Shown here one piece after another: positions 232 through 11,417 of a stretch of 22,273 nucleotides of DNA (the first letter of the stretch is position 1; each line of letters begins with the position of its first letter). The notes under the pieces were generated by a model, which searched no databases, had not been told where the DNA came from, and saw only the letters and a list, made by a program, of their open reading frames with translations. The stretch lies in IMG/VR virus record IMGVR_UViG_3300038706_000036, positions 1-22,273 of that record. One strand, 5' to 3'. Made by a program: the position numbers and the translations under genes. Source of the DNA: a virus.

Positions 232-1072
232 ACTGGTTAAGTCCTTTCCAAACTTCGTTGCCTTCTTTGCCTGCTTCAATTGCTTGACGATTGTACTTTG
301 TTAAATTAATCATTCTTTCATTTCGTAAAAGTAATTCTTTACTTTGATTTAGGTTTTTAATATATTGGCTTCGCCCTTTTAAAGGTAATGCCTTTAATAA
401 AGGCTCTAGTTCATGGTATTTAAGAGCAAGTGTTTGTGCTCTTTTTGGCCCGATTCCAGGTACTCCATCAATAGCATCACTTTTATCTCCTTCAAGATAG
501 CGAGAAAGTAAATACTCGGAAGGAGTAGTTCCAAAATTTTCTAATAAGTAATCAGTGTTAACTTCTCTTCGAGAAAAAATATTAAATATGCTTACATTAT
601 CTTTTAATAATTGGTATAAGTCTCGGTCACTTGAGATAATCCACGTATGCTCATAATTGCCTGACAATTTTATAGTAAAAAAAGTCATTAAATCATCTGC
701 TTCTACTCCTCGATACTTGTGTTTATCATAAGGTAAATCTTCATAAATAGCATTTAAACAATCAAAAAATTCTTGGTATTTCTTTAACTCATCTTCATCT
801 TTTGGTTTTTTACGAGTGCTTTTATAACCGTCTGCTAACTCTATTCGGTAATAACTTTTTCCAAAATCAAAACAAATAATAATTTTATCTGCTTTATAGC
901 TTTTGCCTAAACTTTCGATGGTTCGGTGGTAGTCTTCTTCAAAATGATTGTAATTTTTTCTTTGTATCCAGCGATACGCTAAATTATTACCATCAATAAT
1001 AAGAAGATTATTTTTTTCTCCTAGTTGATCTTGCACAGCGGCAAGATCATTCCATCCTTTTATATCAGTCAT
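224..1072 (-). CDS. 5'-3' exonuclease / flap endonuclease (Pol I N-domain type)
   Basis: This 282-residue protein belongs to the family of the Pol I 5'-nuclease domain and T5 D15, metal-dependent enzymes that remove RNA primers and 5' flaps. Visible motifs are LLIIDGNN (23-30) with metal ligand D27, FDFG with D69, the basic arch segment GYKSTRKK (82-89), GVEADDL (122-128), SSDRDL (147-152), and the helix-3-turn-helix DNA clamp with GDKSDAIDGVPGIGPKRA (195-212). Since this phage's family-A polymerase (14336-16579) has no 5' nuclease domain, this separate gene probably supplies that activity. It has its own sigma70-like promoter (1098-1126), and an AAAGG ribosome-binding site sits 11 bases before the ATG inside an inverted repeat. 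It overlaps dut by 8 bases. Confidence 0.92.
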   Translation of the reverse strand: MTDIKGWNDLAAVQDQLGEKNNLLIIDGNNLAYRWIQRKNYNHFEEDYHRTIESLGKSYKADKIIICFDFGKSYYRIELADGYKSTRKKPKDEDELKKYQEFFDCLNAIYEDLPYDKHKYRGVEADDLMTFFTIKLSGNYEHTWIISSDRDLYQLLKDNVSIFNIFSRREVNTDYLLENFGTTPSEYLLSRYLEGDKSDAIDGVPGIGPKRAQTLALKYHELEPLLKALPLKGRSQYIKNLNQSKELLLRNERMINLTKYNRQAIEAGKEGNEVWKGLNQYV

Positions 1073-1076
1073 TATG

Positions 1077-1126
1077 TTGATAACCTTTCATTTTTGTATT
1101 ATAGCATTTTTTAAAGGTTTTATCAA
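1077..1126 (-). promoter_or_regulatory. Inverted repeat that could occlude the exonuclease ribosome-binding site
   Basis: On the plus strand TTGATAACCTTT (1077-1088) and AAAGGTTTTATCAA (1113-1126) are complementary over 12 bp apart from a two-base bulge, with 24 bases between them. On the transcribed strand the 5' arm contains the -35 box and the 3' arm contains the AAAGG ribosome-binding site, ending 4 bases before the ATG. RNA reading through from upstream can form the hairpin and bury the site. RNA starting at the local promoter (about 1091) lacks the 5' arm. The repeat is seen directly; the switching role is inference. T4 lysozyme gene e is a known case of early-transcript ribosome-site occlusion. 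Confidence 0.6.
1098..1126 (-). promoter_or_regulatory. Sigma70-like promoter of the exonuclease-dut genes
   Basis: On the minus strand the -35 box TTGATA (1126-1121) and the -10 box TATAAT (1103-1098) are separated by 17 bases. A TG dinucleotide placed as in extended -10 promoters precedes the -10 box (TGCTATAAT). The predicted start is near 1091, giving a leader of about 19 bases with AAAGG 11 bases before the ATG at 1072. It lies in the largest non-coding gap of the window (1073-1200). Confidence 0.8.
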
Positions 1127-1200: not shown

Positions 1201-1644
1201 TTATACTAAAGCTTTGATTCTTTCTACAAGTCTATTGGCTCTGTTTGTGACTTGGCGGTACCAACGAGAATCTATCATCTCATCAGCAGCTTTGTTCCAA
1301 TCTCTTGAGTCTACACCTGCCTTCATACCTTTAAACTTACTAAATCTAGTATAACCAAGATTAAACATCATATTAGCAATAACTAATTGTGCTTCTTCGG
1401 GTAAGTCATAAAAGTCATCATAAAGCTTAACGCAGTCTTTTAAAACTATCTCAATATCTGTCTCAAAAACTGCACGACTTCTCCATTCGGGAACAAGAGT
1501 ACCTACTTCTTGACCATATTCCCTATCATTTTTAGTTATCAAATGACCAATGCCAAAAGTTGGATATCCCAGGTGATCTTTATATATCGAATTGATCACG
1601 CCTTCGTCGTATTCTAAATCTCTTCTTAATTTCTCTATGTTCAT
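1201..1644 (-). CDS. T4-type lysozyme (endolysin, glycoside hydrolase 24)
   Basis: This 147-residue muramidase hydrolyses the MurNAc-GlcNAc bond of peptidoglycan to release progeny. It aligns along its whole length with T4 lysozyme (164 residues). The catalytic triad is E14 (in YDEG), D23 (in IYKDH) and T29 (in YPTFGIGH, 27-34). The C-terminal SRWYRQVTNRANRLV matches the T4 segment SRWYNQTPNRAKRV. There is no signal peptide or membrane segment, so export would need a holin, and none is visible here. A good ribosome-binding site (AGAGGTGG) precedes the ATG. It sits among nucleotide-metabolism genes, and a 128-base gap with a new promoter follows it. Confidence 0.93.
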   Translation of the reverse strand: MNIEKLRRDLEYDEGVINSIYKDHLGYPTFGIGHLITKNDREYGQEVGTLVPEWRSRAVFETDIEIVLKDCVKLYDDFYDLPEEAQLVIANMMFNLGYTRFSKFKGMKAGVDSRDWNKAADEMIDSRWYRQVTNRANRLVERIKALV

Positions 1645-9020: not shown

Positions 9021-9896
9021 TTACTTTGTAGCGTCCCAATTAAATATTTTATTAACATTTCCTTCAAATGTGTAGCTTCCGATATGGTTGAGTTTGGTGT
9101 TCGGGTCAAGCCAAATTTTTCCTCCAATTTTTTGCCATCTTCGACAAAAAGTATAGTCTTCTGATAGATACCTATTATCATCAGGATCGTGAATGGTGTC
9201 AAAGAAAGAATAACAATATTGGTTAAATTTAGGATCAATACTACTGTCATTAACATAATAAAGTTCAGGATATGCTTTAATCATTTTTTCCACTACACTG
9301 CGTTTCATTAACCAAAAACCTGTACTAGCATCTAAAACTTCAACAGCTCCTAAATCCACTCTTACTTGTTGTTTTTGTTGGTCAGCAAATTTTAAGTTAA
9401 TTGCGTAATCAACAGGAAGAGTTTTCTTAGGGTATGCTCCCGTAATTAAGTCTTTATCCATCGCAATCATTCTAATAACAGCTTCAGGATCAAATTCAAT
9501 ATCTGCGTCAATAAACATTAAGTGAGTACATTCTTTGGCTTCTAAAAACATTGCGTTTAGAATATTTCTAGCACGCGGTACTAAACTTTCGTTTCTTAAA
9601 GTAGTAATTCTAAAATTAACGTTGTATTTAATTAATTCTTGAGTAAGTCTAAACATACTCAAAAAATACTGGTCTGTAACAAGACCTCCATAACAAGGGG
9701 TAGCAAAGAAAACATTATTTTTTCTTACTACTTCCATATCAATGACTACTTGGTCACCCTCTACTTTTCTGAAGGCTCCTCCTGGGTGAGCTTGCGTTAC
9801 TTTGATAGGTGCAACATTAGGGGAGGCGCCAACCTCCCCTATTTGTTGAGCCTGATCAGTAGTTTTCACTAACTCATTAAGCTTATATTTTTTCAT
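9021..9896 (-). CDS. GT-A-fold glycosyltransferase (GT2-like)
   Basis: This 291-residue protein has an N-terminal tail of about 60 residues and then a GT-A domain. The domain starts NVFFATPCYGG (61-71); the metal and nucleotide-sugar motif DAD lies at 130-132 in MFIDADIEF. SEDYTFCRRW (245-254) carries the ED pair expected for a catalytic base, and H271 in NHIGSYTF is a plausible third metal ligand. It would transfer a sugar from a nucleotide donor; target and sugar are unknown. The gene sits between ssb and an FkbM-like methyltransferase, abutting both with TAAATG junctions. A strong GC-rich hairpin lies within the tail-coding part. Confidence 0.78.
   Translation of the reverse strand: MKKYKLNELVKTTDQAQQIGEVGASPNVAPIKVTQAHPGGAFRKVEGDQVVIDMEVVRKNNVFFATPCYGGLVTDQYFLSMFRLTQELIKYNVNFRITTLRNESLVPRARNILNAMFLEAKECTHLMFIDADIEFDPEAVIRMIAMDKDLITGAYPKKTLPVDYAINLKFADQQKQQVRVDLGAVEVLDASTGFWLMKRSVVEKMIKAYPELYYVNDSSIDPKFNQYCYSFFDTIHDPDDNRYLSEDYTFCRRWQKIGGKIWLDPNTKLNHIGSYTFEGNVNKIFNWDATK
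9174..9202 (-). promoter_or_regulatory. Sigma70-like promoter inside the glycosyltransferase gene
   Basis: On the minus strand a perfect TTGACA (9202-9197) is followed after 17 bases by GATAAT (9179-9174), one mismatch from TATAAT. The predicted start is near 9167, about 150 bases before the methyltransferase ATG (9020). It could drive the methyltransferase and the downstream sbcD-sbcC pair. It is read from consensus only. Confidence 0.5.
9818..9841 (-). promoter_or_regulatory. GC-rich 9-bp hairpin just downstream of ssb
   Basis: TAGGGGAGG (9818-9826) and CCTCCCCTA (9833-9841) pair perfectly around a six-base loop. It stands out in an AT-rich genome. It lies 56 to 79 bases beyond the ssb stop, inside the glycosyltransferase coding sequence. 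No U-run follows on the transcribed strand, so it is not a classical terminator. It may stabilise or define the 3' end of ssb mRNA, pause RNA polymerase or slow ribosomes. The stem is seen; the role is inference. Confidence 0.5.
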
Positions 9897-11003: not shown

Positions 11004-11417
11004 CTAAGGTATTCTATAGCTACCCTTGATTACACGTTCTGCAAATAATGCTGCATTAATTGCGCCGTGTTTTCCTATCGACATACATGCAACAGGTACA
11101 CCTTTAGGCATTTGTGATATGCTTAATAAACTATCTAATCCTAATAAGTCAGACTTCATTGGAACACCTATTACTGGTAAAGTCGTATATGCTGCAACTA
11201 CTCCAGGTAGTGCAGCAGACATGCCGGCGGCTGCGATAATTACTTTCATTCCCTTGCTAATCGCACCAGTAGTCCATTCTCTTACTTTTTCCGGTGTTCT
11301 ATGCGCAGACGCAACAATAGTCTCATTTGTAATATTTAATTCATCTAACTTATCTGAACAATGCGTCATCATTTCCAGATCAGACGCACTACCCATTATT
11401 ATTCCAACTTCGCTCAT
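11004..11417 (-). CDS. purE: PurE, N5-carboxyaminoimidazole ribonucleotide mutase
   Basis: PurE class I converts N5-CAIR to CAIR in de novo purine synthesis. This 137-residue protein has [12 protein letters not shown] (6-17), the phosphate-binding start, then SAHRTPE (37-43) with catalytic H39, and [20 protein letters not shown] (81-100), QMPKGVPVA (102-110) and the C-terminal helix segment NAALFAERV. The SAHR form (not SAHK) points to class I. Oddly, the loop usually read as AGGAAHLPG is AGMSAALPG (64-72), with His replaced by Ala69. It is shorter than E. coli PurE (169) at the C-terminus. An AAAGGG site lies 8 bases before the ATG. It ends the PRT-purS-microprotein-purE run. Confidence 0.93.

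Follow-up and report, generated by a model that had tools for sequence, protein, structure and literature searches.

Shifting hairpins that may weave a flap-endonuclease promoter into a start-site RNA lock in a family of uncultured marine phages

RNA that enters a gene from outside can fold back over its start site, as in the transposase mRNA of IS10/IS200, where RNA from outside promoters folds in this way and RNA from the internal promoter does not. These are mobile elements whose pairing arms come from their end sequences, and the function of the fold is protection from outside transcription. In phage T4, the leaders of gene e (lysozyme) and of soc, 49 and I-TevI act on long upstream transcripts, which hold both arms of a structure and hide the Shine-Dalgarno (SD) site or the AUG (PMC3014915). 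Transcripts that start from a promoter inside the structure are without its 5' arm, and gene e is present without the structure in Aeh1, 44RR, 25 and 31 (PMC3014915). The T4 structures involve late TATAAATA promoters and delay lysis or a homing nuclease.

The window considered here is the whole stretch of DNA that was analysed, a 22,273-base fragment of an uncultured marine phage taken from a virus record. Its genes, which lie on the minus strand, include those for a DNA polymerase, SbcC/D-like proteins, a DnaB-like helicase, a primase-like protein and a ribonucleotide reductase; the same phage has a glutaredoxin-like ORF and, by sequence inspection, a PurE-like ORF at 11004-11417. One gene encodes an exonuclease with both the N- and C-terminal domains (Pfam 5_3_exonuc_N, E 2e-19; 5_3_exonuc, E 4e-11), whose nearest cultured relatives, the flap endonucleases of T5-like phages, are 36-38% identical to it; on sequence grounds it can be placed with the T5 D15-type flap endonucleases. 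A search among cultured phages for nucleotide-level relatives found none. On the 5' side of the exonuclease gene lies a lysozyme gene (Pfam Phage_lysozyme, E 1.8e-08).

Between the two genes, TTGATA-aa-ACCTTT (1126-1113, minus strand) pairs with AAAGGTTATCAA (1088-1077) over 12 bp, with a two-base bulge (AA, 1120-1119) and a 24-base loop (1112-1089), precisely the repeat described in the first-pass annotation of the window. The sequence also bears out that annotation in setting the upstream arm on a -35 box and the downstream arm on the exonuclease ribosome-binding site: the box forms the outer half of the left arm, and the SD site is part of the inner half of the right arm (AAAGGT, 1088-1083, followed by TATCAA, 1082-1077), ahead of an ATG at 1072-1070 (Table 1). 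The promoter, TTGATA-17-TATAAT with a TG preceding the -10 box, matches 11 of 12 consensus positions. Such matches are common in this AT-rich DNA (83 promoter-like sites in the window at a loose threshold, against 78.5 expected), so the case for the promoter rests on its conservation in relatives and not on the match. Promoter and predicted start, the latter alternatively given as 1091-1092, both lie between the arms, so that only RNA initiated upstream should hold both of them, and RNA from the predicted local start would be without the upstream arm.

Table 1. Features of the exonuclease locus in window coordinates
Feature	Position	Strand	Basis
T5 D15-type flap endonuclease / 5'-3' exonuclease gene, 282 aa	224..1072	-	Pfam and protein identity
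Downstream hairpin arm AAAGGTTATCAA, with SD site AAAGG at 1088-1084	1077..1088	-	Sequence and folding
Predicted transcription start, in the loop	1091	-	Inferred from -10 position
Extended -10 element TGCTATAAT, within the loop	1098..1106	-	TGnTATWAT kept in nearest relatives
ACCTTT, inner half of the upstream arm, within the promoter spacer	1113..1118	-	Sequence and folding
-35 box TTGATA, doubling as the outer half of the upstream arm	1121..1126	-	Sequence and relatives
Co-directional lysozyme (endolysin) gene 5' of the exonuclease; candidate read-through source	1201..1644	-	Pfam

In having a promoter between the arms and an SD site predicted to be buried in read-through RNA, the locus resembles T4 gene e, and both are patchy among relatives. 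The window phage belongs to a different phage group, however, its arms vary from lineage to lineage, and it is known here from sequence and predicted folds. A late promoter of the T4 type (TATAAATA) was looked for inside the hairpin, and a sigma70-type extended -10 promoter was found in its place, driving a replication-type flap endonuclease; the hairpin is therefore likened to the T4 late examples in its working and is not classed as one of them. With IS10/IS200 it would share the fold-back of read-through RNA, and it differs from them in that they are mobile elements with end-sequence arms and a protective function.

Smaller features surround the hairpin. A second small hairpin (AAGATTAATT/AATGAATCTT, 1125-1149) abuts the -35 box and could compete with the main one, and a perfect 9-bp stem with a 6-base loop (TGATCTTGC/GCAAGATCA, 1026-1049), mismatched in relatives such as L009, lies early in the exonuclease coding sequence. 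The predicted local RNA starts with or near AUGAAAGGU (1091-1067), a possible 8-codon leader frame (MKGYQHND) that terminates over the exonuclease start; an ATGAARGGT core recurring in L009-L016 gives even shorter leader frames there.

The hairpin alone is predicted to fold at -7.4 kcal/mol at 37 C and -13.3 kcal/mol at 15 C. In a 260-nt read-through context, the predicted CCUUU/AAAGG pairing probability is about 1.0 from 4 to 37 C, which answers, by prediction, the concern that the structure might be unstable at the growth temperature of the host. The SD site is predicted to be unpaired with a probability of 0.00-0.02 over the same range in read-through RNA, and of about 0.6-0.7 in RNA from the local start, in agreement with the original proposal that read-through RNA hides the site and local RNA leaves it open. 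How unusual is such a fold? Its z-score against chance is -0.87 for a 101-nt segment and -2.2 for 81 nt (likewise 71 nt), and the SD site is buried equally well or better by 3 of 300 shuffled upstreams and 2 of 300 genomic stretches. Occlusion of the start region has p 0.015-0.03 (0.02-0.07 under other settings), the window taken alone spans p 0.01-0.07 overall, and the extra occlusion that upstream RNA brings to the exonuclease is the third highest among 29 window genes. Upstream sequence is predicted to occlude the SD region of the 9021-9896 gene most of all, and a strong 9-bp hairpin (TAGGGGAGG/CCTCCCCTA, 9818-9841) lies close to the start of that gene. The exonuclease hairpin is thus real and moderately unusual, and not overwhelming by itself. 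An AT-rich promoter beside an A/T-rich start region could yield a hairpin by coincidence, with only the promoter being conserved, and the window-only p of 0.015-0.07 precedes any correction for selection out of 22 kb. For the window alone chance is a serious rival.

The exact repeat is carried by three near-identical contigs and is absent from all other contigs of the IMG/VR collection. Across -248 to +244, counted from the start codon, two of the three are identical to the window, and an extra A at -106 is the sole difference in the third; being nearly identical to the window, these carriers cannot test conservation of the hairpin. The distribution does bear on the suggestion, also made at first pass, that the repeat is a DNA operator, at which a repressor or activator would bind over the promoter. 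The repeat does extend from the -35 box to about +15, as such a site might. Yet the window holds one exact copy, two-mismatch copies occur at the chance rate, the repeat is confined to the window lineage and absent from other promoters, and a 24-base gap with a bulge is unusual for the binding site of a dimer. With a single copy, and with arms, loop length and spacing that vary among relatives, an operator is highly improbable.

The nearest relatives outside this lineage (L009, L010, L011-L015 and L016; 77-78% protein identity) still have the extended -10 promoter, and the ATGAARGGT core at the start site is conserved in them. The window pairing was sought in all of them and is absent, and their SD sites are not buried: L010, L011-L015 and L016 have the promoter but no longer the complementarity of the arms, an outcome that the first-pass annotation had named as refuting its reading, and in L009 the SD site is not blocked. 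The start regions of L010, L011 and L016 are in fact more open than with most swapped upstreams. A 7-8 bp stem in L009 (TATTAGA/TCTAATA) was considered as a conserved stem and rejected; the predicted fold is a different one, and the SD site is not hidden by this stem. Promoters without the hairpin in the closest relatives speak for chance. In the tree, the window and these hairpin-less relatives fall together in a well-supported clade of 12 rows. The simplest reading of its hairpin is therefore a gain specific to the window lineage, repeated loss being the alternative. The gene preceding the exonuclease is itself swapped among close relatives as the endonuclease promoter stays: the window and L009 have a phage lysozyme in this place, L010/L011/L016 have an M15-like peptidase, and many others have a PDDEXK nuclease. 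The locus looks like a hot spot for endolysin replacement.

The wider family was collected by a profile search, which returned 80 relatives down to 55% identity, with more added by searches around the hairpin-bearing clades. A -35-like and a -10-like box precede the exonuclease gene in all 43 distinct upstream regions, with predicted leaders mostly of 14-27 nt. The spacing between boxes is 17 nt in 41 of the 43, a figure partly built in by a promoter caller that takes the best-scoring site, so that the stronger argument for a promoter is the way in which TTGC/TTGAC and TATNNT visibly line up among relatives. Preceding genes encode lysozyme, PDDEXK nuclease and, by sequence inspection only, M15-like peptidase, amidinotransferase-like and radical-SAM-like proteins, and in 42 of 43 relatives a co-directional gene terminates 30-164 nt ahead of the exonuclease ATG. 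Such proximity invites a model of translational coupling, whereby initiation is blocked by the hairpin unless it is opened by ribosomes finishing the gene before it, so that the nuclease would depend on translation of its neighbour. The upstream stop does lie 30-70 nt before the ATG, adjoining the left arm, in many relatives. Among cultured T5-like phages (Vibrio phage phi 3, Vibrio phage Skimmer, Aeromonas phage Akh-2), the D14-D15-dut cluster has a homologous flap endonuclease gene that is followed by a dUTPase gene and that begins in overlap with the stop of the gene before it; unlike the window, this cluster leaves no leader gap. In the window the lysozyme stop is 128 nt from the ATG. A ribosome terminating there would be about 75 nt away from the left arm, too distant to open it, and coupling leaves the promoter inside the hairpin unexplained. 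As a general account it is improbable, although it may contribute in relatives with an upstream stop near the left arm.

Strong hairpins that differ from that of the window occur at the same place in several lineages (L098/L103/L107, L115/L116/L128, L017, L090, L141 and L210). Their left arms lie in the spacer or the -10 box and their right arms on the SD site or the AUG, one or other of which they are predicted to bury. In L098, L103 and L107, CTGTATRTA pairs with TATATACAG around the -10 box (z -5.6, -2.2 and -4.3, respectively); L115 and L116, with which L128 is grouped, pair CUUCUGUA with UACAGGAG; L017 pairs UCUUUUGUUAU with AUAACAGGAGA; and in L141 it is the -10 box that pairs, with the AUG region as its partner (GTTATATTTAT/ATAAATATGAC). 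The stem of L098 is very long (-32 kcal/mol at 20 C, z -5.6) and might be read as a processing or stability element, for example one where an RNase III-type cut frees the SD site from read-through RNA. Most of the stems, that of the window included, are short with AT-rich loops, and an Rfam search of the window region gave no match; processing as the general role is barely likely at all. The exonuclease leaders of L154, L157 and L219 are apparent recombinants, joining an L141-group left part (TATATTTA) to an L101-group right part (TAACTATG), a combination that breaks one stem pair.

Since the arms may move, the measure compared across the family was the free-energy cost of opening the start region in read-through RNA. 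When each upstream was replaced by those of other family members, which keeps the promoter motifs, 11 of 43 own upstreams fell in the top 5%, against 1 of 35 promoter-bearing control genes. Single-linkage clustering of the upstreams at 60% identity lumped nearly everything, and clades of the protein tree were used instead. With one representative for each of 25 clades, which are not fully independent, a swap permutation showed that the own upstream occludes more (p 0.002 with the window; p 0.009 without it, the window having been chosen for its hairpin). Dinucleotide shuffles of the upstream, again without the window, gave Fisher p 6e-4 at 10 C and 4e-4 at 37 C, and 5e-4 and 2e-3 under two other definitions. 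Same-locus controls showed no excess, either at 35 promoter-bearing gene starts (p 0.99) or at 70 other gene starts (p 0.65). The signal is patchy, with about 6-8 of the 25 clades carrying occlusion and the others open.

Column-wise covariation of the arms, suggested as a check at first pass, showed no excess in two hairpin-bearing clades (alignments A5 and A6); an apparent A-U to G-C change in L128 was dropped as a candidate, since it relied on a shifted register. Pairing potential persists via shifted arms, not via matched base changes at fixed columns. The absence of covariation again favours chance, but an excess that holds across the family without the window, and is missing in control genes, speaks against it, and we regard coincidence as quite possible, if doubtful. 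The pattern fits selection on the outcome, namely a start site that is shut in read-through RNA and left open in RNA from the local promoter, while the arms themselves turn over rapidly. Of the idea of a promoter held within a hairpin, the class of mechanism thus gains support from other hairpins in the same place that are significant as a group, while the particular stem of the window is not conserved.

A model can be proposed in which the flap-endonuclease gene has a sigma70-type promoter to itself, with an extended -10 element and a very short leader. In the window lineage, promoter DNA would double as the code for the 5' arm of a hairpin that has the SD site as its 3' arm. Transcripts reading through from lysozyme and other upstream genes would fold and yield little exonuclease; RNA from the local promoter, without the 5' arm, would be translated, so that nuclease output would be tied to its own promoter. 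Relatives would reach the same effect through other hairpins, arising and vanishing repeatedly. A possible benefit is that nuclease dosage would follow the promoter's own timing. That a block of the gene e kind on read-through translation of the flap endonuclease has been repeatedly gained and lost seems to us evenly balanced between true and false. Our confidence falls just short of even for the broader statement that a large family of uncultured marine phages repeatedly evolves non-homologous hairpins weaving this promoter into a start-site RNA lock, with only own-promoter RNA translated, as a rapidly turning-over control selected for its effect and not its sequence. If it is true, such RNA controls can escape covariation searches because their arms turn over, and swapping or shuffling the promoter against the start site offers a simple statistical test for finding more of them. 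Promoter-embedded start-site hairpins would then be not a peculiarity of T4 but a solution that phages reinvent for a gene that sits in a dense co-directional cluster and yet must be expressed only from its own promoter.
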